In this document: piece by piece, positions 21,801-59,670 of the stretch
How positions within the stretch are numbered: the first letter of the stretch is position 1
Layout: the number at the start of each line of letters is the position of its first letter
The notes under the pieces: generated by a model
Seen by the model: only the letters and a program-made list of their open reading frames with translations
Databases searched by the model: none
What the model was told of the DNA's origin: nothing
Made by a program: the position numbers and the translations under genes
Source: Streptomyces spectabilis
GTDB taxonomy: Bacteria; Actinomycetota; Actinomycetes; Streptomycetales; Streptomycetaceae
Direction of reading: 5' to 3'
Length of the DNA: 64,000 nucleotides
Assembly: GCF_008704795.1 (NCBI RefSeq)
Contig: NZ_CP023690.1
Location: 6,644,501 to 6,708,500 of the forward strand

Positions 21801-21960
21801 GGTGCCGCGCGGCCCGGTGGAGCCGGTGTGCGTGGGCGGTCCCGCCGTGGCGCCCCCGGACGCCTTCGGCGGCGCGAGCGCGGCCTATGTGTCCGGGACG
21901 GTGGCCGGGGCCACCCCGTTCGGCCGCTCACATGCTGAGACGCCCGTCCCACCTACTTGA
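18853..21960 (+). CDS. cdgD: Membrane PAS-GGDEF-EAL cyclic-di-GMP protein (probable CdgD)
   Basis: 1035 residues from the preferred ATG. About eight transmembrane helices (residues 40-280) lead into a cytoplasmic-type Arg-Asp-Val repeat linker (304-350) and two more helices (about 360-420). A PAS domain follows (from 427, ENHFRSLVQGSSDVIMIAAP), then GGDEF (motif intact, residues 629-633) and an EAL domain. The EAL signature is degenerate: A763-Q764-A765 replaces EAL, the Asn of VSVN is Arg (VSVRIG), and DDFG reads DGFG. Diguanylate cyclase activity is therefore plausible, but phosphodiesterase activity is unlikely. Streptomyces CdgD is encoded directly upstream of ilvB, which supports the name. 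Alternative start: ATG 18445. Its stop codon overlaps the TTGACA upstream of the ilvB leader. Confidence 0.85.
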   Translation: MSGQTASASVLDGGLGAPLPSPGAPMARRPAPSGGTGLLSQVFLLLICGGYATGSALGWGSTRLALIMGDFGLSAAAAAAAVSCFFYSRTRRSRFRPAWLLFALSSAMAACGNAVWGWHEVVLGQRVPERGFADLFFLCFAPPAIIGLLVLAKRPVTKAGWVCLGLDAWLIGGSLLTLSWSLALAHTAQFEGPGVAHAALSLAYPLLDIALVSMVLALHFRRSSANRTAVNTAIGALALTVMCDALFTSPLLHASYRSGQLLDAGWFAGSLLLAYAPWATPRQGRADTDPTRLGHRPYDRPRAASVRDVRGARDPHDVRDVRDVHTARDPRDVRDVRDGRDPRDHERGDAVRYATTRPIAGSLAALTPYLAAAVCTLGILYNVLNGRSVDEVVLFTAGTVVLALVVRQGIMLLDNITLTQELAQKENHFRSLVQGSSDVIMIAAPSGILRYVSPAAAGVYGREADDLVGSELATLMHPEDLGRVVHEVRRFLAANPVEEPTTRIECRFKSGSGEWLNVESTVNRHHGGLIFNSRDVTERVRLQAQLQHNAEHDPLTDLPNRALFTRRVAQALGGRRVTDRGTAVLFIDLDGFKAVNDTIGHQAGDELLVMAAQRLQEAVRSSDTASRLGGDEFAALIVGDGTRDQAAREKHIMELADRLRLRLSQPYDIDGNDVRVAASIGVAFAEPGVGAGELLRNADLAMYRAKAAGKGRVELYAPQMQADVARKAELATRLRSALHEGEFTLLHQPVVALDSGRITSVAAQARWRSAQGIMFTPAEFLRTAEDGDRTAELGRWLLQEAVEQAADRALAGHAMPVSVRIGARRLVDRSLPLGSLEALLTRHGLPSGALVIELADSDPRVSLDELERRLTSLRRLGVRVALDGFGSGCAAITALRRLPVDVLKLDRGLVEGVVESARLHKITAGLLRIATDLGLDSVADGVDHPEQVVALRAMGCTHGQGMAFSGPLDEYRLRRALAMGEYPVPRGPVEPVCVGGPAVAPPDAFGGASAAYVSGTVAGATPFGRSHAETPVPPT
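21931..21949 (+). promoter_or_regulatory. Element shared with cimA, upstream of the ilvB leader
   Basis: The 19-mer CATGCTGAGACGCCCGTCC matches 59495-59513 upstream of the cimA leader at 17 of 19 positions. It lies 63 bases before the leader-peptide ATG, inside the end of the preceding coding sequence. TTGACA (21957-21962), an 18-bp spacer and GAGGGT (21981-21986) form a possible promoter that would start transcription close to the leader ATG. Confidence 0.6.
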
Positions 21961-21993
21961 CAGTGGTGGCGCGCCGGGGGGAGGGTCAGTGCC

Positions 21994-22035
21994 ATGCGCA
22001 CCCGAATTCTCGTACTTGGAAAGCGCGTCGGCTGA
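21994..22035 (+). CDS. ilvB leader peptide
   Basis: Thirteen-residue peptide MRTRILVLGKRVG with a run of Ile-Leu-Val-Leu and a later Val, encoded between a possible promoter and a terminator in front of ilvB. GGGGAGG at 21978-21984 could serve as ribosome site if transcription starts further upstream. The composition is what a ribosome-mediated attenuator for branched-chain amino acid genes needs: starvation for Ile, Leu or Val stalls the ribosome and lets the terminator be bypassed. The ORF is directly visible; its function is inferred from this layout. Confidence 0.75.
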   Translation: MRTRILVLGKRVG

Positions 22036-22091
22036 AGCTGGTGAGCCCGGTCCCGATACCGGAGGAACCCAGCGACCGCACCCGGCGCGCT

Positions 22092-22125
22092 CCCCTCGCT
22101 TGCCCCACGGCACGAGGGGTTTTTT
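22092..22125 (+). terminator. ilvB attenuator (intrinsic terminator)
   Basis: CCCCTCG (22092-22098) pairs with CGAGGGG (22113-22119), with an extra TGC/GCA pairing inside. Six T residues (22120-22125) follow at once, rare in this G+C-rich sequence. A short hairpin, CCGGT/ACCGG, lies between the leader stop and this stem. About 100 bases separate the T-tract from the ilvB start. Confidence 0.85.
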
Positions 22126-22224
22126 GTTGCATCAGCACTGCCAAACCCAGGCAAAAACCCCGCTAAATCCCCGCCGAACGTTTCAAGCGGGACCTCAGCG
22201 AAATCCCTCAGCTTCGAGAAGAGA

Positions 22225-24087
22225 ATGCCGATGACCGAGCAGGCCACCGGGGCCAGCCATCCGCAGCCGCGGCCCCGATCCTCTGGACAGCAGCAGTCCG
22301 CGCCCGTCGAGCACGTCACGGGTGCGCAGTCCCTGATCCGTTCGCTCGAGGAAGTCGGGGCCGACACCGTATTCGGCATTCCCGGAGGCGCGATCCTCCC
22401 GGCGTACGACCCGATGATGGACTCCACGCGCGTCCGTCACATCCTGGTCCGCCACGAGCAGGGCGCGGGCCACGCGGCCACCGGTTACGCCCAGGCCACC
22501 GGCAGGGTCGGCGTCTGCATGGCCACCTCGGGCCCCGGTGCCACCAACCTGGTCACGCCCATCGCGGACGCCCACATGGACTCGGTGCCGCTCGTCGCCA
22601 TCACCGGCCAGGTCTCCTCCAAGGCCATCGGCACGGACGCCTTCCAGGAGGCGGACATCGTCGGCATCACCATGCCGATCACCAAGCACAACTTCCTGGT
22701 CACCAAGGCCGAGGACATCCCGCGCACCATCGCGGAGGCCTTCCACATCGCCTCCACGGGCCGCCCGGGCCCCGTCCTCGTCGACATCGCCAAGGACGCG
22801 CTGCAGGCGCGGACCACGTTCTCCTGGCCGCCGCAGCAGGAGCTGCCCGGCTACCGCCCGGTGACCAAGCCGCACGCCAAGCAGATCCGCGAGGCGGCGA
22901 AGCTCATCACCGCCGCGAAGCGCCCCGTCCTGTACGTCGGCGGCGGCGTCATCAAGGCCGGCGCCACCGCCGAGCTGAAGGTCCTCGCCGAGCTCACCGG
23001 CGCGCCCGTCACCACCACCCTGATGGCGCTCGGCGCGTTCCCCGACAGCCACCCGCTGCACGTGGGCATGCCGGGCATGCACGGTGCGGTCACCGCCGTC
23101 ACCGCGCTGCAGAAGGCCGACCTGATCGTCGCCCTCGGCGCCCGCTTCGACGACCGCGTCACCGGCAAGCTGGACAGCTTCGCCCCGTTCGCGAAGATCG
23201 TGCACGCCGACATCGACCCGGCCGAGATCGGCAAGAACCGCGCCGCCGACGTGCCGATCGTCGGCGACGCCCGCGAGGTCATCGCCGACCTCGTCCAGGC
23301 CATCCAGGCCGAGCACACCGCGGGCCACACCGGCGACTACACCGCCTGGTGGGCCGACCTGAACCGCTGGCGCGACACGTACCCGCTCGGCTACGACCAC
23401 CCCGACAACGGCCAGCTCGCGCCGCAGCAGGTCATCGAGCGCATCGGCCAACTGGCGCCCGAGGGCACGGTCTTCGCCGCGGGTGTCGGCCAGCACCAGA
23501 TGTGGGCCGCGCACTTCATCCAGTACGAGCGGCCCGCGACCTGGCTCAACTCCGGCGGCGCGGGAACGATGGGCTACGCCGTCCCGGCCGCGATGGGCGC
23601 CAAGGCCGGTGAGCCCGACAAGACCGTCTGGGCCATCGACGGCGACGGCTGCTTCCAGATGACCAATCAGGAGCTGACCACCTGCGCCCTGAACAACATC
23701 CCGATCAAGGTCGCCATCATCAACAACGGCGCCCTGGGGATGGTCCGCCAGTGGCAGACGCTGTTCTACAACCAGCGCTACTCCAACACGGTCCTGCACT
23801 CCGGCCCCGGCGCCGACGGCAAGCAGCCGAGCGCGGGCACCCGCGTCCCGGACTTCGTCAAGCTGTCCGAGGCGATGGGCTGTTACGCGATCCGCTGTGA
23901 GGACCCGGCCGACCTCGACAAGGTCATCGAGGAGGCCAACGCCATCAACGACCGCCCCGTCGTGATCGACTTCATCGTCCACGAGGACGCCCAGGTCTGG
24001 CCGATGGTCGCGGCGGGCACCTCGAACGACGAGGTCATGGCCGCCCGGGGCGTGCGCCCCGACTTCGGCGACGGCGAAGACGACTGA
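22225..24087 (+). CDS. ilvB: Acetolactate synthase large subunit
   Basis: 620 residues, full length for the catalytic subunit of acetohydroxyacid synthase. This thiamine-diphosphate and FAD enzyme condenses pyruvate with pyruvate or 2-oxobutyrate in Val/Leu/Ile synthesis. The catalytic Glu is E78 in [15 protein letters not shown], followed by [20 protein letters not shown]. The ThDP-binding motif starts at [14 protein letters not shown]. The first 30 residues are a variable Pro/Gln-rich extension. Regulated by the leader-peptide attenuator upstream. ilvH follows after 26 bases, and ilvC follows ilvH after 86. Confidence 0.98.
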
Positions 24088-24113
24088 GAGCACCAGGAAG
24101 AAGGACAGACCCC

Positions 24114-25732
<1,619 letters not shown>

Positions 25733-25741
25733 GGCTCACGT

Positions 25742-25776
25742 CGGCGGGGCCGGGGCGCACCGCCCCGGCCCCGCCG
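25742..25776 (+). terminator. Terminator of the ilvBHC operon
   Basis: A perfect 16-bp stem (25742-25757 with 25761-25776) with loop CAC starts nine bases after the ilvC stop. Confidence 0.85.
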
Positions 25777-25802
25777 CTCTCCGTGAGGACTCTCCGTGAG
25801 GG

Positions 25803-25850
25803 CACGGGGCTCCGCCCCGGACCCCGCTCCTCAAACGCCGGAGGGGCTGA
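25803..25850. repeat. Intergenic palindromic repeat, partial copy 3
   Basis: A GGGGCTCCGCCCC hairpin is followed by CTCCTCAAACGCCGGAGGGG, which is one arm of the family seen at 0.8, 15.9 and 27.7 kb; the opposite arm is missing. The rest of the gap to serA (25851-26058) holds a possible -10, TACACT at 25940-25945, and no gene. Confidence 0.65.
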
Positions 25851-26058
25851 TTCCAGGCCGAGCTCCTAGTTGTCCGTGGCGGCCATCCTCGTCCGGGTGA
25901 TCCTTCCAGTCAGGCGCATAAGGCCCCCGCAGACGCCACTACACTGCAAACCACATTCGCGTCAGGCCCACAGCGTCGTGCGTCTTCCACGCGGCTAGCC
26001 ACCTCCACCGCCTGCGGCCGTCGGGACGGCCGTCCGCATTGGACTTGTGAGGACTCAC

Positions 26059-27663
26059 GTGAGCACTGCTGCCAACGGCAAACCGGTCGTACTCATCGCT
26101 GAAGAGCTGTCGCCCGCGACCGTCGAAGCCCTGGGCCCCGACTTCGAGATCCGGCGCTGCAACGGCGCGGACCGCGCGGAGCTGCTGCCCGCCATCGCCG
26201 ACGTCGACGCCATCCTGGTCCGCTCCGCGACCAAGGTCGACGCCGAGGCCATCGCCGCCGCCCGCAAGCTGAAGGTCGTCGCCCGCGCGGGCGTCGGCCT
26301 CGACAACGTCGACGTCTCCGCCGCCACCAAGGCGGGCGTCATGGTGGTGAACGCCCCCACCTCGAACATCGTCACCGCCGCCGAGCTGGCCTGTGGCCTG
26401 CTCCTGGCCACCGCCCGCAACATCCCGCAGGCCAACACGGCGCTGAAGAACGGCGAGTGGAAGCGCTCCAAGTACACCGGGGTGGAGCTGGCCGAGAAGA
26501 CCCTCGGCGTCGTCGGCCTCGGCCGCATCGGCGCGCTCGTGGCGCAGCGGATGTCCGCGTTCGGCATGAAGGTCGTCGCCTACGACCCGTACGTACAGCC
26601 CGCGCGCGCCGCGCAGATGGGCGTGAAGGTGCTCTCCCTCGACGAGCTGCTCGAGGTCTCGGACTTCATCACCGTGCACCTGCCGAAGACGCCCGAGACG
26701 GTGGGCCTCATCGGCGACGACGCGCTGCACAAGGTCAAGCCGGCGGTGCGGATCGTGAACGCCGCCCGCGGCGGCATCGTGGACGAGGAAGCGCTGTACT
26801 CCGCGCTCAAGGAGGGCCGCGTCGCGGGTGCCGGCCTCGATGTGTACGCGAAGGAGCCGTGCACCGACTCCCCGCTGTTCGAGCTCGACCAGGTCGTGTG
26901 CACCCCGCACCTCGGCGCGTCCACCGACGAGGCGCAGGAGAAGGCGGGCATCTCGGTCGCCAAGTCCGTGCGGCTCGCGCTCGCGGGCGAGCTGGTCCCC
27001 GACGCGGTGAACGTCCAGGGCGGTGTCATCGCCGAGGACGTGCGCCCCGGACTGCCGCTCGCCGAGAAGCTCGGCCGGATCTTCACCGCCCTCGCGGGCG
27101 AGGTCGCGGTCCGGCTCGACGTCGAGGTGTACGGCGAGATCACCCAGCACGACGTGAAGGTGCTCGAACTGTCCGCGCTCAAGGGCGTGTTCGAGGACGT
27201 CGTCGACGAGACCGTCTCGTACGTGAACGCGCCGCTGTTCGCGCAGGAGCGCGGCGTCGAGGTGCGGCTCACCACCTCCTCGGAGTCGCCCGACCACCGC
27301 AACGTGGTCACCGTGCGCGGCACGCTCGGCGACGGCGAGGAGGTCGCGGTGTCCGGCACGCTCGCCGGACCCAAGAACCACCAGAAGATCGTCGCGGTCG
27401 GCGACTACGACGTGGACCTGGCGCTCGCCGACCACATGGTCGTGCTGCGGTACGCGGACCGGCCCGGTGTCGTCGGCACCGTCGGGCGCGTCCTCGGGGA
27501 GGCCGGGATCAACATCGCGGGCATGCAGGTCGCTCGCGCTGACGTGGGCGGGGAGGCACTGGCCGTCCTCACCGTCGACGACACCGTGCCGGCCGGGGTG
27601 CTGGCGGAGGTCGCCGCCGAGATCGGGGCCACGTCCGCCCGTTCGGTGAACCTGGCCGACTGA
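26059..27663 (+). CDS. serA: D-3-phosphoglycerate dehydrogenase
   Basis: 534 residues, the long SerA form with catalytic, intervening (ASB) and C-terminal ACT domains. It catalyses the first step of serine synthesis, 3-phosphoglycerate to 3-phosphohydroxypyruvate with NAD. The NAD motif is TLGVVGLGRIGALVAQR. The catalytic Arg (NAARGGIVDEEAL), Glu (DVYAKEPC) and His (TPHLGASTDEAQ) are all present. The ACT domain starts near YADRPGVVGTVGRVLGEAGINI and suggests serine feedback control. GTG 26059 is preferred over GTG 26047 because GAGG lies just upstream. It sits after ilvBHC but has its own promoter region and shares a bidirectional terminator with the MFS gene. Confidence 0.97.
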   Translation: MSTAANGKPVVLIAEELSPATVEALGPDFEIRRCNGADRAELLPAIADVDAILVRSATKVDAEAIAAARKLKVVARAGVGLDNVDVSAATKAGVMVVNAPTSNIVTAAELACGLLLATARNIPQANTALKNGEWKRSKYTGVELAEKTLGVVGLGRIGALVAQRMSAFGMKVVAYDPYVQPARAAQMGVKVLSLDELLEVSDFITVHLPKTPETVGLIGDDALHKVKPAVRIVNAARGGIVDEEALYSALKEGRVAGAGLDVYAKEPCTDSPLFELDQVVCTPHLGASTDEAQEKAGISVAKSVRLALAGELVPDAVNVQGGVIAEDVRPGLPLAEKLGRIFTALAGEVAVRLDVEVYGEITQHDVKVLELSALKGVFEDVVDETVSYVNAPLFAQERGVEVRLTTSSESPDHRNVVTVRGTLGDGEEVAVSGTLAGPKNHQKIVAVGDYDVDLALADHMVVLRYADRPGVVGTVGRVLGEAGINIAGMQVARADVGGEALAVLTVDDTVPAGVLAEVAAEIGATSARSVNLAD

Positions 27664-27689
27664 CGGGTCCCGCCTTCATCGGCGCTTCG

Positions 27690-27744
27690 CGCCTCGTCCT
27701 CAAACGCCGGACGGGCTGGAACTTTCCAGCCCGTCCGGCGTTTG
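27690..27744. terminator. Bidirectional terminator formed by repeat copy 4
   Basis: A perfect 20-bp stem (27701-27720 with 27725-27744) has the 4-nt loop ACTT. The stem sequence, CAAACGCCGGACGGGCTGGA, is the palindromic repeat family in its most compact form. It lies between the convergent serA and MFS genes and can serve both. Confidence 0.88.
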
Positions 27745-27756
27745 CGTGCGCCCTGC

Positions 27757-29259
27757 TCAGCGCAGCGCCCTCGCCGCCAGGGCCGCCGCCGCGAGCAGGA
27801 CGAGGGCACCCGCCAGGGCCGCGATGTGCATGCCGCTGGTGAAGGCGGTCCGGGCCGCGGCCGTCAGGGCGTCCGCCGCCGTGGGCGGGAGCTGGGAGGC
27901 GACCGCCACGGCGCCGCCCAGGGTCTCGCGGGCCGCGTCCGGGGCCGTGTCCGGCATCTCGTGGCGGAACACCGCCGTGCCGATGGAGCCCAGGACCGCC
28001 ATCCCGAGGGCGCCGCCGAACTCCTGGCCCGTCTCCAGGAGGGACGAGGCCGCGCCCGCCTTCTCCGCGGGGGCCGCCCCGAGCGCCAGGTCCGTCAGCT
28101 GGGAGCCCACGACCACGGCCCCGCAGGCGAGCACCCCGGCCCCGGCGAGCACCGTCCACATCGCGTCCGTACCGGCGGCGAAGAGCAGGCCGTAGCCGCA
28201 GGCCGAGAGCGCGAAGCCGCCCGCGACCACGTGGGCCCGCGCCGCGCCCCCGCGCACCGCCGCCGTCGCGACCGGCGCGGCGAAGCCGATGAGGACCGAG
28301 GGGAGCAGCGCCCACAGCGCGGCCTCCAGCGCGCTCTTGCCGAGCACCGACTGGAGGTACTGCGTGGTGAAGTACGCCGAACCGAGCATCGCGAAGGACG
28401 AGATGAGGTTCAGCGCGACGGCGGTCCCGAAGCCCCGGCCGCCGCGGAAGAGGGCGGGGGAGATCAGCGGCGACGACGCGGTGAGCTGACGGCGCACGAA
28501 GAGCACGGCGAAGAGGGCGCCGACCACGAGTGAGGCGACGTACGGCCACCGCACCCCCTGGGACGGCAGCTCCTTGAGGCCGTAGACCACGGGCAGCACC
28601 GCCGCGAGGGACAGGGGCACGCTCAGCAGGTCGAAGCGGCCCGGACGCGGGTCCTTGGACTCGGGGATGAGGACGGGCGCGAGGATCAGGAGCAGCACCA
28701 TCGCGGGCAGGTTGACCAGGAAGACAGAGCCCCACCAGAAGAACTCGACGAGGACGCCGCTGAGCACCGAGCCGAGCGCGACGCCGCCGACCATGACCCC
28801 CGACCAGATGCCGATCGCCGTGGCGCGCTGACCGGGGTCGCGGAACAGGGTGCGGACCAGCGCCATCGTGGACGGCATCAGGGTCGCGCCGCCGATGCCG
28901 AGGACCGCGCGGGCGGCGATGAGCAGCTCCGGGCTCGTGGCGTAGGCGGCGGTGAGGGACGCCGCGCCGAAGGCGGCCGCGCCGATCAGCAGGAGCTTGC
29001 GGCGGCCGATGCGGTCGCCGAGCGAGCCCATGGTCATCAGCAGACCCGCGAGCACGAACGCGTAGATGTCGAAGATCCACAGCTGCTGGGTGCCGCTGGG
29101 CTCCAGGTCGGCGTTCAAGGCGGGGACCGCGAAGTAGAGGACCGACACGTCCATCGACACGAGCAGCAGCGGCAGCATCAGGACGGCCAGGGCCGTCCAC
29201 TCCTTGCGGCCCGCGCGGTCGGTGGCGGGGGCGGGCGGAGGCGGGGTTGTCGTGGTCAT
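27757..29259 (-). CDS. MFS drug exporter, DHA2 type
   Basis: 500 residues with about 14 hydrophobic helices. The segment RRKEWTALAVLMLPLLLVSM-type start, LYFAVPALNADLEPSGTQQL, the loop MTMGSLGDRIGRRKLLLIG (MFS motif A) and ARAVLGIGGATLMPSTMALV (motif C-like region) fit QacA/SmvA-type proton antiporters. It probably exports cationic drugs or related compounds. ATG 29259 is chosen; a longer frame upstream reads through the operator region and is not credible. Divergent from the tetR gene, with three operator-like boxes in the 97-bp gap. Confidence 0.9.
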   Translation of the reverse strand: MTTTTPPPPAPATDRAGRKEWTALAVLMLPLLLVSMDVSVLYFAVPALNADLEPSGTQQLWIFDIYAFVLAGLLMTMGSLGDRIGRRKLLLIGAAAFGAASLTAAYATSPELLIAARAVLGIGGATLMPSTMALVRTLFRDPGQRATAIGIWSGVMVGGVALGSVLSGVLVEFFWWGSVFLVNLPAMVLLLILAPVLIPESKDPRPGRFDLLSVPLSLAAVLPVVYGLKELPSQGVRWPYVASLVVGALFAVLFVRRQLTASSPLISPALFRGGRGFGTAVALNLISSFAMLGSAYFTTQYLQSVLGKSALEAALWALLPSVLIGFAAPVATAAVRGGAARAHVVAGGFALSACGYGLLFAAGTDAMWTVLAGAGVLACGAVVVGSQLTDLALGAAPAEKAGAASSLLETGQEFGGALGMAVLGSIGTAVFRHEMPDTAPDAARETLGGAVAVASQLPPTAADALTAAARTAFTSGMHIAALAGALVLLAAAALAARALR

Positions 29260-29283
29260 GGGGCAGGACTGTACGGTCGTCTT

Positions 29284-29334
29284 AGACGGTTGTCTAGAAC
29301 GACTGTGTAAGACGCTTGTCTTGGACGGTTGTCT
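29284..29334. promoter_or_regulatory. Three 12-bp operator boxes between MFS and tetR
   Basis: AGACGGTTGTCT at 29284-29295, AGACGCTTGTCT at 29310-29321 and GGACGGTTGTCT at 29323-29334 share the palindromic frame AGAC-N4-GTCT, with starts 26 and 13 bp apart. A promoter for the tetR gene overlaps them: TTGGAC (29321-29326), an 18-bp spacer and TAGGGT (29345-29350), only six bases before the tetR ATG. Most likely the autoregulatory operator of the TetR protein. Confidence 0.75.
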
Positions 29335-29356
29335 GGGGCGGGCGTAGGGTGCGCGC

Positions 29357-29962
29357 ATGGGACACCGTGAGGATCTGCTCGCAGGGGCCAAGCGCTGCCT
29401 GCTGGAGAAGGGCTTCGTGCGCACGACGGCGCGCGACGTCGTCAAGGAGTCGGGTACGAATCTCGCGTCGATCGGCTATCACTACGGCTCGAAGGACGCG
29501 CTGCTCGCCGAGGCCTACATCTCGCTCATCGAGGACCTCGGCGACGGCTTCGTGGGGCCGCCCGACGGCGACGCGGGACCCGGCGGTTCGCTGGAGCGGT
29601 TCGAGAAGATGTGGGGCAACGTCATCCAGTCGTTCCCCGAGGCGCGCGGGATCTGGATGCTGACCCTTGAGTTCATCACCCAGGGCGAGCGGCTCGCCGG
29701 GGTGCGGGACATCATGGTCAAGGCCCAGGTCCAGGGCCGCGCCGGGCTCGCCGCGCTCCTGCTCGACCTCGACGACACCGCCGTGCCGGAGGACGTCGTG
29801 AACGCCGAGGGGCGGCTCTACACGACCCTGCTCAACGGCCTCATGGTGCAGTGGCTCTTCGACCCGGGCTCGGCCACCACGGCCGGGCAGCTCACGGAGG
29901 GGCTGCGGCGGGTGGCTGAGCGGGCCTCGGCGGCGGAGGGCCGGCGGCTACCGCAGTCGTGA
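29357..29962 (+). CDS. TetR-family repressor of the MFS exporter
   Basis: 201 residues. N-terminal [23 protein letters not shown], then [30 protein letters not shown], the classic TetR DNA-binding unit. The C-terminal ligand domain is divergent. No ribosome site precedes the ATG, and the -10 TAGGGT ends seven bases before it, so the mRNA is probably leaderless. It is divergent from the exporter gene and most likely represses both through the boxes in the gap. Its 3' end overlaps the end of the convergent pucR-type gene by 15 bp. Confidence 0.9.
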
Positions 29963-31117: not shown

Positions 31118-31212
31118 CGGGCCCTTCCTTCGCTCCGTGCGGGCTGTGCCGCCTGCCCGGTTCCCTCGTCGTCAATGCTTTCGAGAGCCATTCTCGCGCA
31201 GTCGGGCGTCCG

Positions 31213-45639: not shown

Positions 45640-45778
45640 GACGTGGGAACTTCCCAGGGGCGTCCAACTCCCGCCATACCTGCGGGTGAAGAGAGCATGT
45701 CCGTGTGGTGGCGTACGCGCGGAGGGAACGGGTCTGTCCACATCGCGGACGGCCCGTGTCATTGGATGGGACGAACGG

Positions 45779-45790: not shown

Positions 45791-46831
45791 ATGTCTCGCA
45801 GCATCAATCTCGCAGTGATCCCCGGTGATGGGATCGGCCAGGAAGTCGTGGCCCAGGGGCTCAAGGTCCTCAACGCCGTCCTCCCGCAGGATGTGAAGCT
45901 GGAGACCAAGGAGTACGACTTCGGCGCGCGGCGCTACCACGCCACCGGGGAGACCCTCACCGACGCCGACCTCGCGGACCTGAAGAAGCACGACGCGATC
46001 CTGCTCGGCGCCATCGGCGACCCGTCGGTGCCCTCCGGCGTCCTGGAGCGCGGCTTCCTGCTCAAGCTCCGCTTCGCCTTCGACCACCATGTGAACCTGC
46101 GTCCGAGCAAGCTCCTGCCGGGCGTCGCGACCCCGCTCGCCGGGCAGCCCGAGATCGACTTCGTCGTCGTCCGCGAAGGCACCGAGGGCCCCTACACGGG
46201 CAACGGCGGCACCATCCGCCAGGGCACCGAGCACGAGGTCGCCACCGAGGTCTCCGTCAACACCGCCTTCGGCGTGGAGCGCGTCGTGCGCGACGCCTTC
46301 GCCCGCGCCCAGGCGCGGCCGCGCAAGAAGCTCGCGCTGATCCACAAGAACAACGTGCTCGCCTTCGCCGGCCACCTGTGGACGAACGTCTTCAACAAGG
46401 TGGCCGCGGAGTTCCCCGACGTCACCACCGAGTACATGCACGTGGACGCGGCGACGATCTACCTCGTCACCCAGCCCGAGCGCTTCGACGTGATCGTCAC
46501 CGACAACCTCTTCGGCGACATCATCACCGACCTCGCCGCGGCCGTCTCCGGCGGCATCGGCGTCGCGGCCTCCGGCAACATCAACCCCGCCCGCGCGTTC
46601 CCGTCGATGTTCGAGCCGGTGCACGGCTCGGCGCCCGACATCGCGGGCCAGGGCAAGGCCGACCCGACCGCGACCGTGCTCTCCGTCGCCCTGCTCCTGC
46701 GCCACCTCGGGTACGACGCCGAGGCGGCCCGGGTCGAGGAGGCCGTCTCCACCGACCTCGGCGCCCGCGGGACCACCGTGCGCAGCACCGACGAGATCGG
46801 CGACGCGCTCGCCGTACGCGTAGCGGGCTGA
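45791..46831 (+). CDS. leuB: 3-isopropylmalate dehydrogenase
   Basis: 346 residues, the actinobacterial length. It oxidatively decarboxylates 3-isopropylmalate in leucine synthesis with NAD and Mg2+. It starts [20 protein letters not shown]. The substrate and metal motifs follow in [50 protein letters not shown] and [20 protein letters not shown], with the NAD loop [20 protein letters not shown]. The ATG lies directly after a -10-like TAGGGT, so the mRNA is probably leaderless and no attenuator precedes it. A 13-bp hairpin follows, then ilvE. Confidence 0.97.
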
Positions 46832-51342: not shown

Positions 51343-51365
51343 GAAGGGCCCCTGACGCTGTGTTT

Positions 51366-51454: not shown

Positions 51455-51483
51455 ATGTGCGGCAGGGATACGAGGTGCCTGGC

Positions 51484-52170: not shown

Positions 52171-53855
52171 GCATCGATCCGTACGCCTACGCCGCGACCC
52201 ACGGCCCCCGCGCCGGGGACCGCGTCCGGCTCGGCGACTCCGGCCTGACCGTCCGCGTCGAGTCCGACGCGCAGCGGTACGGCGACGAGTTCCTCGCCGG
52301 ATTCGGCAAGACCGCCCGCGACGGACTGCACCTCAAGGCCGCGGCCGTCCGCGACACCTGCGACGTCGTGATCAGCAACGTCCTCGTCATCGACGCGGCG
52401 CAGGGCATCAGGAAGGTGTCCATCGGCATCCGCGAGGGCCGGATCGCCGCGATCGGACGGGCCGGGAACCCCGACACCCTCGACGGCGTGGACGTCGTCG
52501 TCGGCACCGGTACGTCCATCGTGTCCGGCGAAGGACTCATCGCCACCGCCGGAGCCGTGGACACCCACGTCCACCTCCTTTCGCCGCGCATCATGGAGGC
52601 CTCGCTGGCCTCCGGCGTCACCACGGTCATCGGGCAGGAGTTCGGGCCCGTGTGGGGCGTCGGCGTGAACTCGCCCTGGGCGCTGCGGCACGCGTTCAAC
52701 GCCTTCGACGCCTGGCCCGTCAACATCGGCTTCCTGGGCCGGGGTTCGTCGTCGGACCCGGCCCCGCTGGTCGAGGCCCTCGCCGAGGGCGGCGCGAGCG
52801 GCTTCAAGGTGCACGAGGACATGGGCGCCCACACCCGCGCCCTCGACACCGCGCTGCGCGTCGCCGAGGAGCACGACGTCCAGGTCGCCCTGCACAGCGA
52901 CGGCCTGAACGAGTGCCTGTCGGTGGAGGACACCCTGAAGGTCCTGGAAGGGCGCACCATCCACGCCTTCCACATCGAGGGGTGCGGCGGCGGCCACGTA
53001 CCGAACGTCCTGAAGATGGCGGGCGTGCCGAACGTCATCGGGTCCTCCACCAACCCCACCCTGCCCTTCGGCCGGGACGCCGTGGCCGAGCACTACGGGA
53101 TGATCGTCTCCGTCCACGACCTGAAGACGGACCTGCCCGGCGACGCCGCCATGGCCCGCGACCGCATCCGCGCCGGGACCATGGGCGCGGAGGACGTGCT
53201 GCACGACCTCGGCGCCATCGGCATCACCTCGTCCGACGCGCAGGGCATGGGCCGCGCCGGGGAGACCGTGCGGCGCACCTTCGCCATGGCCGGGAAGATG
53301 AAGGCCGACCTCGGCCCGATGGAGGGCGACGGCCCCGACGACGACAACGCGCGCGTCCTGCGCTACATCGCCAAGCTCACCCTCAACCCCGCCATCGCGC
53401 ACGGCCTCGCCCACGAGGTCGGCTCGATCGAGACCGGCAAGCTCGCCGACATCGTGCTGTGGCGGCCCGAGTTCTTCGGCGCCAAGCCGCAGCTCGTACT
53501 GAAGGCCGGATTCCCCGCCTACGGCGTCGTCGGCGATCCGAACGCCGCGACCGACACCTGCGAACCCCTCGTCCTCGGGCCGCAGTTCGGGGCGTACGGC
53601 GCGACCGCGGCCGACCTCTCCGTCGCCTTCGTCGCCCAGGCCGCCGTGGGCCAGGGCAACGACCTCATGCCCACGCGCCGCCGCCGCGTCGCCGTGCGCG
53701 GCACCCGCGGCATCGGCCCCGCGGACCTGCGCCTGAACTCCCGTACGGGCGCCGTCGACGTGGACCAGCGCACCGGCCTCGTCACCCTCGACGGCGACCC
53801 GCTGCGCTCCGAGCCCGCCGACTCGGTGTCCCTCAACCGCCTGTACTTCCTCTGA
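52167..53855 (+). CDS. Divergent urease alpha subunit (urease-like amidohydrolase)
   Basis: 562 residues, close to normal UreC length. The nickel site is complete: HVH in AGAVDTHVHLLSP, the carbamylated lysine K214 in SGFKVHEDMG, His in VALHSDGLNE and AFHIEGCGGGH, and Asp in SSDAQGMGR. The mobile flap differs from standard ureases. Where those read V-C-H-H-L, this has S-V316, H317, D318-L, so the catalytic His is kept but the flap Cys and the neighbouring His are lost. EDWG is EDMG and SQAMGR is AQGMGR. Either a slow urease or an enzyme for a substituted urea. Coupled to the gamma-beta gene and followed after 27 bases by agmatine deiminase. Confidence 0.85.
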   Translation: MSIDPYAYAATHGPRAGDRVRLGDSGLTVRVESDAQRYGDEFLAGFGKTARDGLHLKAAAVRDTCDVVISNVLVIDAAQGIRKVSIGIREGRIAAIGRAGNPDTLDGVDVVVGTGTSIVSGEGLIATAGAVDTHVHLLSPRIMEASLASGVTTVIGQEFGPVWGVGVNSPWALRHAFNAFDAWPVNIGFLGRGSSSDPAPLVEALAEGGASGFKVHEDMGAHTRALDTALRVAEEHDVQVALHSDGLNECLSVEDTLKVLEGRTIHAFHIEGCGGGHVPNVLKMAGVPNVIGSSTNPTLPFGRDAVAEHYGMIVSVHDLKTDLPGDAAMARDRIRAGTMGAEDVLHDLGAIGITSSDAQGMGRAGETVRRTFAMAGKMKADLGPMEGDGPDDDNARVLRYIAKLTLNPAIAHGLAHEVGSIETGKLADIVLWRPEFFGAKPQLVLKAGFPAYGVVGDPNAATDTCEPLVLGPQFGAYGATAADLSVAFVAQAAVGQGNDLMPTRRRRVAVRGTRGIGPADLRLNSRTGAVDVDQRTGLVTLDGDPLRSEPADSVSLNRLYFL

Positions 53856-53882
53856 CGCCCCACCCTCGCCAAGGAACCCGCC

Positions 53883-54908
53883 ATGACGCTGTACATGCCC
53901 CCGGAGTGGGCCCCGCACGACCGCACCTGGATGGCCTGGCCAGGCCCCAACACCACCTTCCAGGACCCGGACGACCTGGCCGCGTCGCGCCGGGCCTGGG
54001 CGGCCGTCGCCCGGGCCGTGCGCCGCTTCGAGCCGGTCACCATGGTGTGCGGCCCCGGCCAGACCGGCTCCGCGAGGCAGCTCCTCGGCCCGGACGTGGA
54101 CGTCGTCGAGCGGGAGCTCGACGACGCCTGGATGCGCGACATCGGCCCCACCTTCGTGCGCGACACCGCCACCGGCGGCCTGGCCGCCGTGGACTGGGTG
54201 TTCAACGGCTGGGGCGCCCAGGAGTGGGCCAGCTGGGAGCACGACGCGAAGATCGCCCGGCACGTCGCGGACCTCGCGGGCGCCCCCGTGCACGCCTCGC
54301 CGCTCGTGAACGAGGGCGGCGGCATCCACGTCGACGGCGAGGGCACCGTGCTGCTCACCGAGACCGTGCAGCTCGGCCCCGAGCGCAACCCCGGCTGGAC
54401 CAAGGAGCGGGTCGAGGCCGAGATCCACGCGCGCCTGGGCACCACCGAGGCGATCTGGCTGCCCCGCGGCCTCACCGCCGACTACCCGGGCCACGGCTTC
54501 GGCACCCTCGGCCACGTCGACATCGTGGCCGCCTTCGCCGCGCCCGGCGTCGTCCTCGTGCACAGCCAGCAGGACCCGGCCCACCCGGACTTCGAGGTCA
54601 GCAAGGAGGTCGCGGGCCTGCTGCGCGGGCGCACGGACGCCCGCGGCCGCGCCCTGGAAGTCGTCGAGGTGCCCGCGCCCACCGTCCTCGCCGACGACGA
54701 GGGCTGGGTCGACCACTCGTATATCAACCACTACCTGTGCAACGGCGGCGTGGTCCTGTGCGGCTTCGACGACCCCCGCGACGAGCTCGCCGCGGGCATC
54801 TTCCGGCGCCTTTTCCCGCGCCGCACGGTCACGCTCGTCGACGCCCGTACGATCTTTGCCGGAGGCGGCGGCATTCACTGCGTCACCCAGCAGCAGCCAA
54901 GGATCTGA
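53883..54908 (+). CDS. aguA: Agmatine deiminase
   Basis: 341 residues, full length for the peptidyl-arginine-deiminase-like family. It hydrolyses agmatine to N-carbamoylputrescine and ammonia. The catalytic Cys is C333 in GGGGIHCVTQQQP. Other signatures are PPEWAPHDRTWMAWPGPNTT, DDAWMRDIGPTFV, VNEGGGIHVDGEGTVLLTE and GHGFGTLGHVDIVAAF. AAGGA precedes the ATG. No N-carbamoylputrescine amidase gene follows, as it would in a classical agmatine pathway; instead the gene shares an operon with the divergent urease and a TetR gene. Confidence 0.94.
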   Translation: MTLYMPPEWAPHDRTWMAWPGPNTTFQDPDDLAASRRAWAAVARAVRRFEPVTMVCGPGQTGSARQLLGPDVDVVERELDDAWMRDIGPTFVRDTATGGLAAVDWVFNGWGAQEWASWEHDAKIARHVADLAGAPVHASPLVNEGGGIHVDGEGTVLLTETVQLGPERNPGWTKERVEAEIHARLGTTEAIWLPRGLTADYPGHGFGTLGHVDIVAAFAAPGVVLVHSQQDPAHPDFEVSKEVAGLLRGRTDARGRALEVVEVPAPTVLADDEGWVDHSYINHYLCNGGVVLCGFDDPRDELAAGIFRRLFPRRTVTLVDARTIFAGGGGIHCVTQQQPRI

Positions 54909-54923
54909 CGGCGGGAGCACCAC

Positions 54924-55553
54924 GTGGCCGAAGCGAGCCCCTCGGGCAGCGCGCGCAGGAACGCGCCCCCGCGCGAAGACGTCCTCGCCGCGGCCATGGA
55001 GATGATCGCCGAGCGCGGCCTGGAGAAGCTCACCATGGCCGCGCTCGGCCGCGAGGTCGGCATGAGCAGCGGCCACCTCCTCTACTACTTCGGCTCCAAG
55101 GACGAGCTGCTCCTGCGCACCCTGGAGTGGAGCGAGGGCCGGCTCGGCGCGCGGCGGCGCAGGCTCCTCGCCCAGGACGCCTCGGCCCGCGAGCGCCTGG
55201 ACGCCTACGTCGACCTGTACGTGCCCAAGGGCCACCGCGACCCGCACTGGACGCTCTGGCTGGAGGTGTGGAACCGCTCGCTCAACGCCGACGCGGGCGG
55301 CCGCGACCGGCAGGCCGCCATCGAGGGCGCCTGGCACCGCGACCTGGTGGCGCTGCTCGCCGAGGGCGTCTCGCACGGCGAGTTCCGAGCCGTCGACCCC
55401 GACCGGGTCGCGACCCGCCTCCGGGCGCTGCTCGACGGCCTGAGCATCCATCTGGCGATCGGTCTGCGCGGCACGGACAGGGCCCAAGTCCTCGGCCATG
55501 CCCGGGAGTTCACCGACCAGACACTCGGCCCCCGACCCGTCGCGGACGCTTGA
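54924..55553 (+). CDS. TetR-family regulator of the urease-agmatine deiminase operon
   Basis: 209 residues starting at GTG, 15 bases after aguA. HTH: REDVLAAAMEMIAERGLEKL, TMAALGREVGMSSGHLLYYFGSKDELLLRTLEW, with the YYF motif of BetI-like TetR proteins, and a C-terminal domain of that branch (LRALLDGLSIHLAIGL). It is the last gene of the operon and would sense a polyamine, purine or urea-like ligand. Likely sites are the 13-bp repeats between the permease and the first urease gene. Confidence 0.88.
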   Translation: MAEASPSGSARRNAPPREDVLAAAMEMIAERGLEKLTMAALGREVGMSSGHLLYYFGSKDELLLRTLEWSEGRLGARRRRLLAQDASARERLDAYVDLYVPKGHRDPHWTLWLEVWNRSLNADAGGRDRQAAIEGAWHRDLVALLAEGVSHGEFRAVDPDRVATRLRALLDGLSIHLAIGLRGTDRAQVLGHAREFTDQTLGPRPVADA

Positions 55554-55666
55554 GGCCCCGTCCAGGTTGTACGCGTTCCGACTGATTGACCCCCGCGCCC
55601 GGCGTGCGCTTGCATCCGATGGGCCCCTGGCACCGGGCCGGGGCCCCTGCCTTCCGGGGGGAACGC

Positions 55667-56968
55667 ATGGCCCAGGACCAGCGGAAGAAGAGACGGGGCC
55701 GAGCCGCGAGGGCGGCGGGCGCGAGCGCCCTGGCCGGCCTCCTCGCGGTGGCGGTCCTGCCCGCGGCCGTCGCGGCGCCCGCGCCGCACGCACCGGCGGG
55801 GGCCGCCGGGACCACCCGCCTGATCAGCGCCGCCGTCGACGGCGGCGCGGCGAACGGCCCCTCCGGCAACCCGGTCGTGAGCGCCGACGGCCGGATCGCC
55901 GTCTTCACCTCGCAGGCGAGCAACCTCGTCCACGGCGACACCAACGACCGGGCCGACCTGTTCGTCCGCGAGCTGCGCCGCGGCAGGACCCAGCGCGTCG
56001 TGGACCCCCTCGGTGAACTCTCCGCACCGGCGCTCAGCGCGGACGGCCGCCACCTCGCCTACACGGCGCGGGACGGCGACACGACCGCCGTCGTCGTCCG
56101 CGACCTGCGCACGGGCCGCACCGAGCGCGCCGACGTCGACCTGCCGATGCCCTTCGAGAGCGGCTACGCGCCCGCGCTCTCCGCCGACGGCCGCACCGTC
56201 GCCTTCACCGTCGACGACACCGACCACACCACCACCGGGGCCCAGGCCGTCTACGTGCGCGACCTGCGTGCGCGGCGCACCGAGCGCGTCAGCTTCCCCG
56301 TCGACGGCGAGGAGGGCTTCCGCGGCTTCCGCGCCCCGACGATCAGCGCCGACGGCAGGACGGTGGCCTACCAGACCGTGCACGGCACCCCGCCGCGCGG
56401 CGACTGGGCCGACCTCTACGTCCACGACCGCGACACCGGCGGCGAGACGCAGGCCGACACCACGTACGACGGCAGCCCCGCGGACGGCGCCGCCACCGGC
56501 CCGCTGCTCAGCGCGGACGGCACCACGCTGGTCTTCGACTCCGGCGCCTCCAACCTCGTCCCGGGCCGGGACCCCAACGACAGCGTCAACCCCTTCGTCC
56601 GCGATCTGCGCACCGGCAGGGTCACCCGCGTCGACGCGGCCCTGCCCGGCCCCCAGGGCGTCCTGTCCGTCGACGGGGTCTCGGCCGACGGCAGGAAGCT
56701 GCTGCTCGACACCTGGCCGGTCCACACCGTCGACGACGCCGAGTACGTCCGGAACCTGCGCACGGGCGCCGACAGGCTGGTGTCGCCGGACAAGGACGGC
56801 AGGCCCGCGAACGCCGTGGACGCCCGCATGGACGCCCGCGCCCGGACCGTCGTCTTCACCGGCTTCGACGACGACCGCTTCGTGGCCGGGGACACCAACG
56901 GCGTCCCGGACGTGTTCGCCCGCACGGTCCGCCAGGAGGCGAACCCATGCGCCACGTCAGGCCCCTGA
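55667..56968 (+). CDS. Secreted TolB-like beta-propeller protein 1
   Basis: 433 residues. A basic start and hydrophobic core (RKKRRGRAARAAGASALAGL, then LAVAVLPAAVAAPAP) give a Sec signal peptide. The mature part is a string of six or so PD40/TolB-type blades, each with a variant of SADGRTVAF followed by YVRDLRTGRTERV. The end DTNGVPDVFARTV is shared with the next two proteins. GGGGGAA lies close before the ATG. No catalytic residues are evident; binding or envelope roles are possible. Overlaps the next paralogue by 22 bp. Confidence 0.85.
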   Translation: MAQDQRKKRRGRAARAAGASALAGLLAVAVLPAAVAAPAPHAPAGAAGTTRLISAAVDGGAANGPSGNPVVSADGRIAVFTSQASNLVHGDTNDRADLFVRELRRGRTQRVVDPLGELSAPALSADGRHLAYTARDGDTTAVVVRDLRTGRTERADVDLPMPFESGYAPALSADGRTVAFTVDDTDHTTTGAQAVYVRDLRARRTERVSFPVDGEEGFRGFRAPTISADGRTVAYQTVHGTPPRGDWADLYVHDRDTGGETQADTTYDGSPADGAATGPLLSADGTTLVFDSGASNLVPGRDPNDSVNPFVRDLRTGRVTRVDAALPGPQGVLSVDGVSADGRKLLLDTWPVHTVDDAEYVRNLRTGADRLVSPDKDGRPANAVDARMDARARTVVFTGFDDDRFVAGDTNGVPDVFARTVRQEANPCATSGP

Positions 56969-58035
56969 CCCTTTTGGGCGCGGCCCTGGTAACCGTGCTC
57001 GGCGCCACCGCCCCGACCGCCGCCGAAGCGGCCCCGCAGGTACCGCGCACCGAACGCGTCAGCACCGCGGCCGACGGCGCCCAGCTCGACGGGCCCTCCG
57101 GCGACGCCGCGCTCAGCGGCGACGGCCGCCGCGTCGCGTTCGTGACGCGGGCTCCGGGCCTCGGCTGCGCGCCGTTCCTGCCCTGCCTCAAGGTCAAGGA
57201 CCTGACCACCGGCGACCTGACCGGCATCGACATCGGTGGCGGCCACCTCTACAGCGCGCCCCTGCTCAGCGCGGACGGCGACCGCGTCGCCTTCACCGCG
57301 GGCACGCGCTTCACGGCGCCCTACGTGTACGACACCACCACCGGCACCGCGCAGCGCCTGTGGCCCGAGAACCCGCCCGGCTCCAACGAGCTGGGCGCCG
57401 TGCGGTCCCTGAGCCCCGACGGCACGCACGTCGCGTACACGATCGGCAACCGCCACGGCACCCAGGGCTCCCGGCTGCTGTACGTCCGTGACACCGCCGC
57501 CGGAACCGACGAGCTGATCTCGCCACCGGAGGAGGGCTGGAAGGGCGGGGCGTCCGTGAACGGCGACGGCACCCGCGTCGCGTACCAGACCGGCGGCTAC
57601 AGCGAGGGCCCCGAGGACACGGCGGACGTCTTCCTCAAGGCTCGCGGCACGGCGGAGCGGACCCGGCTCGACGCCGGTCTCGGCACGGCCGAACTGGTCC
57701 GGATCAGCGCCGACGGCCGCCGGGTCCTCTTCAACGCCCAGGGCGGCCTGTACGTCCACGACGCGCGCACCGGCACCACCCGGCGCGTCGCCGAGGGGCG
57801 CGCCAGGTCGGCCACCGCGTCGGCCCGGCACGTCGTGCTGTCCCGGGCCGACGGGCTGCACCTGCTCGACCTGCGCACCGGCCGCAGCACCGCCGCCGGC
57901 CCGCCCGACGCGCGCGCGGGCGTCGGCGCGGTGGCCGCCGGGGGCCGCGCCGTCACGTTCGGTTCGGCGGCGCCCGACCTCGTACCGGACGACACCAACG
58001 GCGAGGCCGACGTCTTCGTACGCCACCTCCGCTGA
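56947..58035 (+). CDS. Secreted TolB-like beta-propeller protein 2
   Basis: 362 residues with a short Sec signal (LTLLGAALVTVLGATAPTAA). Repeated blades (LSADGDRVAFTAG, ISADGRRVLFNAQ) and the ending DTNGEADVFVRHLR show that it is a paralogue of its neighbours, with fewer residues between blades. GGAGG precedes the ATG, which lies inside the end of gene 1, so translation is coupled. Function unknown. Confidence 0.83.
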   Translation: MRHVRPLTLLGAALVTVLGATAPTAAEAAPQVPRTERVSTAADGAQLDGPSGDAALSGDGRRVAFVTRAPGLGCAPFLPCLKVKDLTTGDLTGIDIGGGHLYSAPLLSADGDRVAFTAGTRFTAPYVYDTTTGTAQRLWPENPPGSNELGAVRSLSPDGTHVAYTIGNRHGTQGSRLLYVRDTAAGTDELISPPEEGWKGGASVNGDGTRVAYQTGGYSEGPEDTADVFLKARGTAERTRLDAGLGTAELVRISADGRRVLFNAQGGLYVHDARTGTTRRVAEGRARSATASARHVVLSRADGLHLLDLRTGRSTAAGPPDARAGVGAVAAGGRAVTFGSAAPDLVPDDTNGEADVFVRHLR

Positions 58036-58201
58036 CGACCGATCCGGTGAGGGGGAAGCGAACGGCGTGTCGGACGTGCCCCCGCGCGCCCCCGGGGCGA
58101 ACAGTCGTACCGGCAACCAAGAGCGCCCGTACGGCAGTCCTTACCGACGCCGGAGCCATGGGCGCCGGACCCGCACACTCACCGCACGGGGGAACCGAAC
58201 C

Positions 58202-59455
58202 ATGCACCAGAACACCAAGCGCGCGGCCCTGGCCGCCGCGGTCGTCGTCGCGGCGGTCACGGCGACCGCCCTGCCCACCGCCTTCGCGGCGCCCGCCGCG
58301 CCGCGCACGGTCGGCGTGAGCGTCACGCCCGGCGGCACGGCGGGCAACGCGGCCGTCTCGTCCGCGGTGATCAGCCGCGACGGCAAGGTCGTCGCCTTCG
58401 ACTCGGAGGCGAGCGACCTGGTGGCCGGGGACACGGGCGGCCGCTCCGACGTGTTCGTGCGCACCCTGGCCACCGGCAGGACGGAGCGCGTCGCGCTCGC
58501 GGGCCGCCAGCTCCGCAGCCCCTCGCTCAGCCGCGACGGCCGCTACGTCGCCGTCATCACGGCCCCCGCCGGTGACTACGGAGCGTCCGACGTGCGTCTG
58601 TACGACCGCACGACGAAGAAGTTCCAGCGCCTGGACGTGGAGCTGCCGGACGGCTTCGACGGCAAGGGCGCGGGCACCGTCTCGCTCACTCCGGACGCCC
58701 GCTACGCCGTCTTCGACACCCGGCAGCGCGAGGGCTCCGACGGCCAGGTCGTGTTCCTGCGCGACCGGAAGAAGAAGACCACCGAGCGGATCAGCCACCC
58801 CAACCCCGGCTGGGAGCCGCGCTCCGCGCACACCCCGACGGTCAGCGACGACGGCCGCAAGGTCGTCTACGCGCACAACTACACCAACGGCCCGCGGGGC
58901 GACGACTGGAGCGACGTGTGGCTGCGCGACCGCGCCACCGGACGCCTGACGCAGGTCGACCGCTCCCACGACGGCTCGAAGACCGAGAAGGAGTCCCTCG
59001 AACCGTCCCTCAGCGGCGACGGCCGCAAGGTCGTCTTCGAGTCCCGCGACACCCACCTCGTGCCGAACGACGACGACAAGGCCTGGAACGTCTTCGTCCA
59101 CGACCTCGCCTCCGGCCGGAACCAGCGCGTCCACGGCACCCAGGGCGGCCCCGGCGCGGCCTACACCCGCGCCCCCGCCGTCAGCGCCGACGGCCGCCGC
59201 CTCACCTATATGACGGAGGTGAAGGAGCCCGGCAGCCGGTACGGCACCGAAACGCCCGTCTACGCACGCGACCTGAAGACCGGCAGGACGGTCCTCGTCA
59301 CCCCCGACGCCACGGGCGGCACGGCCTCGGCGAAGGTCGCCCCGGGCGCGCTCTCGGCGAACGGCGAGCGCGTCGCGTTCCTCTCGGCGGACGCGGGCCT
59401 GCTGCCGGGTGACACGAACGACGGCTACGACGCGTTCGTGCGCCACCTCCGCTGA
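58202..59455 (+). CDS. Secreted TolB-like beta-propeller protein 3
   Basis: 417 residues. Sec signal MHQNTKRAALAAAVVVAAVT ending near AFA. Blades such as SRDGKVVAFDSEASDLVAGD and SGDGRKVVFESRDTHLV and the ending DTNDGYDAFVRHLR mirror propellers 1 and 2. The 166-bp gap upstream has no recognisable terminator or promoter, so it may share their transcript; GGGGGAA precedes the ATG. ATG 58202 is chosen over an in-frame GTG at 58067 because it starts the signal peptide. Function unknown. Confidence 0.83.
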   Translation: MHQNTKRAALAAAVVVAAVTATALPTAFAAPAAPRTVGVSVTPGGTAGNAAVSSAVISRDGKVVAFDSEASDLVAGDTGGRSDVFVRTLATGRTERVALAGRQLRSPSLSRDGRYVAVITAPAGDYGASDVRLYDRTTKKFQRLDVELPDGFDGKGAGTVSLTPDARYAVFDTRQREGSDGQVVFLRDRKKKTTERISHPNPGWEPRSAHTPTVSDDGRKVVYAHNYTNGPRGDDWSDVWLRDRATGRLTQVDRSHDGSKTEKESLEPSLSGDGRKVVFESRDTHLVPNDDDKAWNVFVHDLASGRNQRVHGTQGGPGAAYTRAPAVSADGRRLTYMTEVKEPGSRYGTETPVYARDLKTGRTVLVTPDATGGTASAKVAPGALSANGERVAFLSADAGLLPGDTNDGYDAFVRHLR

Positions 59456-59494
59456 GCGGAGCCCGTCCGGCCGACTGCTGTCCGGCGGCGCCCG

Positions 59495-59513
59495 CATGCT
59501 GAGACGGCCGTTC
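59495..59513 (+). promoter_or_regulatory. Element shared with ilvB, upstream of the cimA leader
   Basis: CATGCTGAGACGGCCGTTC differs from the ilvB-upstream copy (21931-21949) at only two of 19 positions. It lies 51 bases before the leader-peptide ATG. TATGGC at 59529-59534 is a possible -10. Unlike the ilvB copy, this one is in non-coding DNA, so its conservation is not explained by protein sequence. Confidence 0.65.
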
Positions 59514-59545
59514 AAGTACGGCCCGGGGTATGGCAGGCTGAGCCC

Positions 59546-59593
59546 ATGCTTACCGCCGTGATTATGGGCAGCAGGCGCGCCGGTCCGCAGTGA
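59546..59593 (+). CDS. cimA leader peptide
   Basis: Fifteen-residue peptide MLTAVIMGSRRAGPQ, containing Leu, Val and Ile within the first six codons. Its stop codon is followed at once by a hairpin (59594-59620) and then by the terminator before cimA. This is the arrangement of a ribosome-mediated attenuator. The ORF is visible; the regulatory role is inferred from the parallel with ilvB. Confidence 0.72.
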   Translation: MLTAVIMGSRRAGPQ

Positions 59594-59670
59594 CCGCCCC
59601 CGTACGACCGTACGGGGCGGCACCGTCTTCGATCCGCGCGCAGACCTCTCGCACCCGCGAGGGGTTTTTT
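59594..59670 (+). terminator. cimA attenuator: pause hairpin and terminator
   Basis: A first stem (59594-59605 with 59610-59620, one bulged C) starts right after the leader stop. The terminator stem CCTCTCGC (59645-59652) pairs with GCGAGGGG (59657-59664, one U-G) and is followed by six T residues (59665-59670). The 3' part, CGAGGGGTTTTTTGTT, is identical to that of the ilvB attenuator. Confidence 0.82.

Follow-up and report, generated by a model that had tools for sequence, protein, structure and literature searches.

Why should ilvB and cimA, two genes about 37 kb apart on the chromosome of Streptomyces spectabilis, be preceded by the same 19-bp element and by leader regions that end in the same terminator sequence? 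The question was raised by a first-pass annotation of a 64,000-nucleotide stretch of DNA, here called the window (positions 6,644,501 to 6,708,500 of the 9.8-Mb chromosome; contig NZ_CP023690.1, assembly GCF_008704795.1), which read the match as a common regulator plus duplicated leader units, that is, as a dispersed regulon. We propose that the common element is a predicted operator of NdgR/LtbR, a regulator of the IclR type whose gene is divergent from leuC, and that a leader-peptide attenuator follows this operator at both genes. As an explanation of the whole arrangement, we hold this to be very likely. Positions below are those of the window, read on the forward strand.

The literal 19-mer lies at 21931-21949 before ilvB (CATGCTGAGACGCCCGTCC) and at 59495-59513 before cimA (CATGCTGAGACGGCCGTTC), 63 bp and 51 bp ahead of the leader ATGs at 21994 and 59546, respectively. 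The ilvB copy overlaps the final codons of an open reading frame (ORF; 18445-21960) that encodes a PAS-GGDEF-EAL protein. With up to three mismatches allowed, these two copies were the sole matches in the window. A search of the 9.8-Mb genome returned the same two copies alone at up to two mismatches and 11 extra matches, all with three mismatches, whereas the reversed control gave 19 at up to three mismatches. The sequence GAGGGGTTTTTTGTT occurs exactly twice in the genome, at ilvB and cimA, and the terminator end CGAGGGGTTTTTTGTT was found at both genes, at 22113-22128 and 59658-59673. The coordinates and the genome search agree with the first-pass annotation on the two spacings, on the position of the ilvB element inside a coding end and on the identity of the terminator ends, and the search that it had suggested, at up to two mismatches, stayed confined to ilvB and cimA.

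The literal 19-mer was nevertheless rejected as the conserved unit, being kept at up to two mismatches in 12/41 ilvB and 1/43 cimA loci of the genus. What is kept instead is the core CRCATnnTGAGAC, which was present in the upstream regions of 41 genomes at all 40 readable ilvB loci and all 41 primary cimA loci, with positions C5, A8 and T12 to A16 invariant throughout. Because the sites were chosen by the core with up to two substitutions, this invariance table is biased towards the core. One ilvB locus that reads N at the site (L014 of G010) stands outside the 40. Two relatives carry second cimA-like genes (L078 in G024 and L084 in G014) with neither operator element nor leader, and these copies stand outside the 41. 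In all 41 primary loci the leader ORF of cimA begins 56-58 bases past operator position 1. A 38-mer from the cimA leader matched exactly in at least 119 named stretches, and the 80 titles listed were all Streptomyces. Among the 116 with enough upstream sequence, 105 had the exact core, 9 had one mismatch and 2 had neither, so that 114 of 116 named Streptomyces cimA stretches keep the 13-base core with no more than one mismatch. In 31 genomes, the pattern YCRCATNNTGAGAC gave 104 matches, compared with 9 for the reversed pattern. Conservation in relatives had been set beforehand as a test of the idea, and its outcome, a core kept across the genus, went against refutation.

At ilvB the core falls within the putative NdgR/LtbR-type distal operator CGCTCACATGCTGAGAC (21925-21941; centre 21933, about -61; 40/40 readable genus loci). 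The proximal site TCCCACCTACTTGAC (21947-21961; centre 21954) follows 21 bp away and is one base off a published NdgR site from chromatin immunoprecipitation sequencing (ChIP-seq), which is assigned to ilvB by its position in the table (PMC4340878, Table 1). From the sequence, we propose that the element and the published NdgR site together form a tandem site, the element being the distal half and the published site the proximal one. IclR regulators have been described with tandem sites 18-22 bp apart in many but not all IclR groups (PMC8222616), and both the 21-bp spacing at ilvB and the palindromic form of the sites match these descriptions. At cimA, one putative NdgR/LtbR-type operator, CGCCCGCATGCTGAGAC, was found (59489-59505; centre 59497, about -49; 41/41 primary genus loci), and no second operator site was seen there.

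The regulator proposed here was arrived at by comparison with the region between ndgR and leuC. A near-invariant palindrome, GTCTCAC(T/A)CTGTGAAAC, lies there in 30/30 aligned genus loci (30 of 31 genomes, the locus of G001 being a fragment), and its reverse complement contains the same CACAnnnTGAGAC. In S. spectabilis itself a one-mismatch copy of the element lies about 160 bp before leuC. The element is thus present at leuCD, one of the places where the first-pass annotation had suggested looking for it. An NdgR/LtbR relative, 54-100% identical, is encoded on the strand opposite leuC in 49 of 49 loci across the class, and IclR domains were found in both of the two leuC-adjacent regulator proteins tested. 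To score the class, the pattern GTYYCRCA(T/G)nnTGAGAC, drawn from the genus and with a maximum of 15, was applied to the 350 bases upstream of leuC in 49 of the 56 above-cut-off genomes (G013, G078, G064, G046, G083, G091 and G073 were left out), 47 of them from outside the genus. A score of at least 13 was reached in 32/47 of these non-genus loci, against 0/47 upstream regions shuffled once, 0/28 regions inside leuC and 0/44 inside the regulator gene (0/119 in all). The ilvB and ndgR-leuC regions are both published NdgR targets in S. coelicolor, by electrophoretic mobility-shift assay and ChIP-seq (PMC4340878), and NdgR has been described as an ilvB activator (PMC10331944). These results support the claim of a common regulator and a dispersed regulon, and they allow NdgR/LtbR of the IclR family to be proposed as the regulator.

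The arrangement described here comes close to the NdgR regulon known from S. coelicolor (the regulator is called LtbR in Corynebacterium and AreB in S. clavuligerus). Both include ilvB, leuB and ndgR-leuC as targets and an IclR regulator beside leuC, and the published ilvB site adjoins the element (PMC4340878). They differ in that the published motif is of the GTCC type, whereas the sites found here resemble GTCTCRCATnnTGAGAC, and in that cimA carries the element but is unlisted in the published table.

Several observations count against the assignment to NdgR. The published motif, GTCCAC...GTGGAC, differs from the element, and a matrix built from 15 other published NdgR sites gave the two elements low scores (p 0.011 and 0.017 per position), although it picked the same register at 40/40 ilvB, 41/41 cimA and 27/30 leuC loci; the published motif was set aside as a full description of the element. 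Neither cimA nor citramalate synthase appears among the 19 ChIP loci of the regulon table in PMC4340878, and the published ndgR-leuC site falls in the ndgR coding start, outside the palindrome. With 30 shuffles per region, the class-wide leuC test gave a top shuffle score of 13 in several loci, which makes the result convincing as a set and not locus by locus. The class-wide operator match beat 20 shuffles at 9/47 cimA and 7/30 ilvB loci, genus included (the ilvB test covered 30 of the 56 genomes). G094 and G090, which belong to two other families, had an operator score of 13 at both genes.

The mismatch with the published motif, the weak matrix scores, the absence of cimA from the ChIP loci and the displaced ndgR-leuC site are what a different regulator would predict, one that binds CRCATnnTGAGAC and shares with NdgR the targets ilvB, the sulfurtransferase gene and ndgR-leuC. 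We consider such a regulator unlikely: across families that have NdgR/LtbR, the promoter region of this regulator also keeps the palindrome, and its form and tandem spacing are those expected of an IclR protein (PMC8222616). The ndgR-leuC comparison led us to favour NdgR despite the weak match to its published motif. A text search of the Streptomyces literature named no regulator for TGAGAC motifs among the matches listed. GlnR, whose box is GTnAC-n6-GaAAC, was set aside because the box spacing differs.

Downstream of the predicted NdgR operators, both genes have a leader ORF, a hairpin (P1) and an intrinsic terminator. At ilvB the probable promoter (21957-21986) consists of TTGACA at 21957-21962 and GAGGGT at 21981-21986, separated by 18 bases; the stop codon of the PAS-GGDEF-EAL gene (21958-21960) overlaps its -35 hexamer. 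The leader peptide MRTRILVLGKRVG (21994-22035) is identical to the published IlvL, and S. lividans ilvL has been published as leaderless (PMC8079986). The 5′ arm of P1 (22022-22091; arms 22022-22031 and 22082-22091) lies within the last leader codons, and the terminator with its U-run (22092-22128) abuts P1. The gene itself, acetolactate synthase large subunit by Pfam and TIGR00118 search, occupies 22225-24087. This leader and the control of ilvB by NdgR are already known.

At cimA, the sequence and its genus counterparts point to CAGGCT (59534-59539) as the probable -10, which precedes the leader ATG by six bases; inspection of the aligned genus sequences by eye showed no conserved -35. The leader peptide is MLTAVIMGSRRAGPQ (59546-59593), mostly V/M-LSFAMIIGSRRAGPQ or a close variant in relatives, and a short leader ORF with isoleucine (Ile) codons is present in the genus sequences. 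P1 (59575-59641; arms 59575-59585 and 59631-59641) encloses a variable hairpin and has a class-wide counterpart. It is abutted by an intrinsic terminator with a U-run (59642-59673), and a hairpin with a U-run is found between the leader and the gene across the genus. The gene, citramalate synthase by Pfam and by TIGR00977 above its cut-off, occupies 59773-61380. ATT is rare in this DNA, accounting for 3 of the 200 Ile codons in 11 window genes. In one species group (L032, L034, L035 and others) the leaders lack one base past the Ile codons, and the peptide ends in SSAPVRSDH rather than SRRAGPQ. The RNA sequence GCGCGCCGGTCC is unchanged in these leaders. The loss alters the end of the peptide and leaves the RNA arm the same: it is the RNA that is kept rather than the peptide end.

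In both leaders the fold consists of P1 with the terminator directly next to it. The fold was more stable than expected at cimA (z = -4.18, with 0/200 shuffles as stable) and at ilvB (z = -2.02, with 8/200; L015 was left out of the genus fold). No Rfam family for a riboswitch, T-box or known leader reached the gathering score in the window or in 9 loci, and searching by E-value gave sub-threshold matches alone.

How the two leaders would work can be sketched from related systems. NdgR bound at the element would activate the ilvB and cimA promoters; it probably activates both because it is a described activator of ilvB and because the cimA operator lies just upstream of a promoter with no conserved -35. 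Each transcript would start at or near the first leader codon, which makes the cimA transcript a presumptive leaderless one. The ribosome would then meet rare Ile, valine (Val) or leucine (Leu) codons, Ile-Ile in the case of cimA, followed by P1 and the abutting terminator. When charged tRNA is abundant it would reach the stop codon and transcription would terminate, and starvation would allow read-through. In the models for C. glutamicum ilvBNC and M. tuberculosis ilvB1, a stalled ribosome permits an antiterminator beside the terminator and a ribosome at the stop codon blocks it (PMC11857589, PMC13236596). The position of P1, next to the terminator and the control codons, is that of the antiterminator in these models, and P1 may be the switching hairpin.

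Some of the data do not favour this mechanism. P1 does not exclude the terminator, since the two can form side by side; the terminator also forms when the 5′ arm of P1 is taken away, and no strong alternative hairpin was seen in the leader folds. Because P1 and the terminator co-fold, and because the terminator does not need that arm, the ON state is drawn by analogy with the two published models. The covariation terms for the two leader folds in the genus were only -0.96 and -0.26, with changes on both sides in 2/34 and 1/25 pairs; covariation is nearly silent here because P1 and the terminator are almost invariant. Changes to the leader codons of S. coelicolor ilvB have also been reported to be without effect (PMC1262725).

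The cimA leader was also found beyond the genus. The class-level set comprised all 46 loci above the cut-off and, in G055, a fragment; 43 of these are non-genus, from 27 other families. A short ORF with Ile-Ile near its end was present in 28 of the 43 non-genus loci (19/27 families). The same test found 1 on the reverse strand, a mean of 0.68 and a maximum of 3 over 50 shuffles, 0/27 before ilvB and 0/47 before leuC. A T-run followed 40-62 bases past the leader stop in 23 of the 28 leaders (mean 0.46 and maximum 3 over 200 shuffles), and 14 of these 23 had a terminator hairpin that beat all 60 shuffles. In 24 loci from 16 families, P1 begins 2-8 bases after the second Ile codon and lies 0-2 bases from the terminator. 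The pairs of P1 differ at several positions across the class, a count that leans to pairing since the pairs were taken from the folds. Weighing on the other side, 15 of the 43 non-genus loci had no Ile-Ile leader by this test. A search of the open-licence literature found no report of a cimA attenuator or of a link between NdgR and cimA among the matches listed. Judged from its sequence, the cimA leader is a predicted Ile-Ile attenuator separate from that of ilvB and apparently undescribed. It is likely that much of the class Actinomycetes has an ancient Ile attenuator at citramalate synthase, with an Ile-Ile leader, a P1 whose sequence varies but whose pairing persists, and a terminator directly adjoining it; and that in Streptomyces this attenuator stands under the NdgR operator GTCTCRCATnnTGAGAC, which would be the sequence chiefly recognized by NdgR at its own promoter.

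Duplicated leader units, the other half of the first-pass reading, fared differently from the common regulator. A recent duplication would have copied element, leader and terminator together, and in this genome the parts do stand in the same order, the P1 arms (AGCGCGTCGG and GCGCGCCGGTC) are alike and the last 16 bases of the terminators are identical. However, that identity occurs in 1 of the 40 genomes in which both terminators were read, S. spectabilis alone, and therefore gives no pointer to recent duplication. The remainder of the two leaders aligns poorly, and each is conserved separately, one as the published IlvL and the other as an Ile-Ile leader present in 19 of 27 other families. 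A recent duplication is thus highly improbable. Given the shared architecture of control codons, hairpin and abutting terminator, the two leaders may go back to a very old common ancestor. A chance resemblance between two promoter regions, for which it might be said that the 19-mer at three mismatches is no commoner than its reversed control (13 vs 19) and that its literal form is poorly kept in the genus, is scarcely credible in view of the fixed distance of the core at all primary genus loci and the 104 vs 9 pattern matches.

Further candidate sites were seen in the window and beyond. A GTCC-type NdgR palindrome, GTCCACATCGCGGAC (45736-45750), lies 40 bp before leuB (45791-46831) and is the best-scoring position of the 15-site matrix in the 64 kb; the matrix includes the published site assigned to leuB. 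The earlier observation that leuB, ilvE, ilvC and serA lack the element is correct for the 19-mer but fails as a contrast for leuB, given this palindrome. The second-best matrix position, GACCACCATGTGAAC (46082-46096), is inside the leuB coding sequence. A near-perfect palindrome between ilvN and ilvC, TTCCGCATTCCGGAA (24650-24664; score 12.2, p 0.00013 per position), may be one more site of the NdgR type. Pattern matches other than those at ilvB and cimA cluster near genes for a sulfurtransferase, chorismate mutase/guaA, aspartokinase, a methyltransferase/ABC-F pair and malic enzyme, some of these names resting on scores below the family cut-off; 17 of the 68 clustered match stretches were unpartnered, including one near prephenate dehydratase. 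At the sulfurtransferase gene, which we took as a published NdgR locus, the aligned sequences place the element and a published-type site 22 bp apart. The S. spectabilis genome contains YCRCATNNTGAGAC in exact form at a third place, between the chorismate mutase gene and guaA (L111, positions 1501-1514), with a similar site in relatives, and has one-mismatch copies near sulfurtransferase and PanS-like transporter genes (L176 and L166), both matched in relatives.

The products of leuA and cimA belong to the same enzyme superfamily. The LEU element before actinobacterial leuA (PMC1262725) is alike in placing a leader peptide before a gene of that superfamily, but has a pseudoknot, Leu codons and no terminator, whereas cimA has tandem hairpins and a terminator. 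Also close are the actinobacterial ilvB attenuators (Seliverstov 2005; S. lividans TK24; C. glutamicum ilvBNC; M. tuberculosis ilvB1). The ilvB leader described here is IlvL letter for letter, and the cimA leader has the same order of control codons, hairpin and abutting terminator. It differs in having Ile-Ile alone and in forming a separate lineage before citramalate synthase, which is not listed in the available parts of those reports.

The recognition sequence of NdgR has so far been uncertain, earlier predictions having left the consensus unclear (PMC4340878), and the conserved palindrome offers one that can be tested. Besides cimA, the targets it predicts comprise sites that relatives carry near chorismate mutase/guaA and aspartokinase and, in a single genome, near prephenate dehydratase. 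If the proposal is true, cimA is a new NdgR target and the citramalate route is coupled to ilvB and leuCD. The cimA leader would add isoleucine-specific control of the threonine-independent route to isoleucine, a control that would be useful in engineering branched-chain precursors in antibiotic producers.

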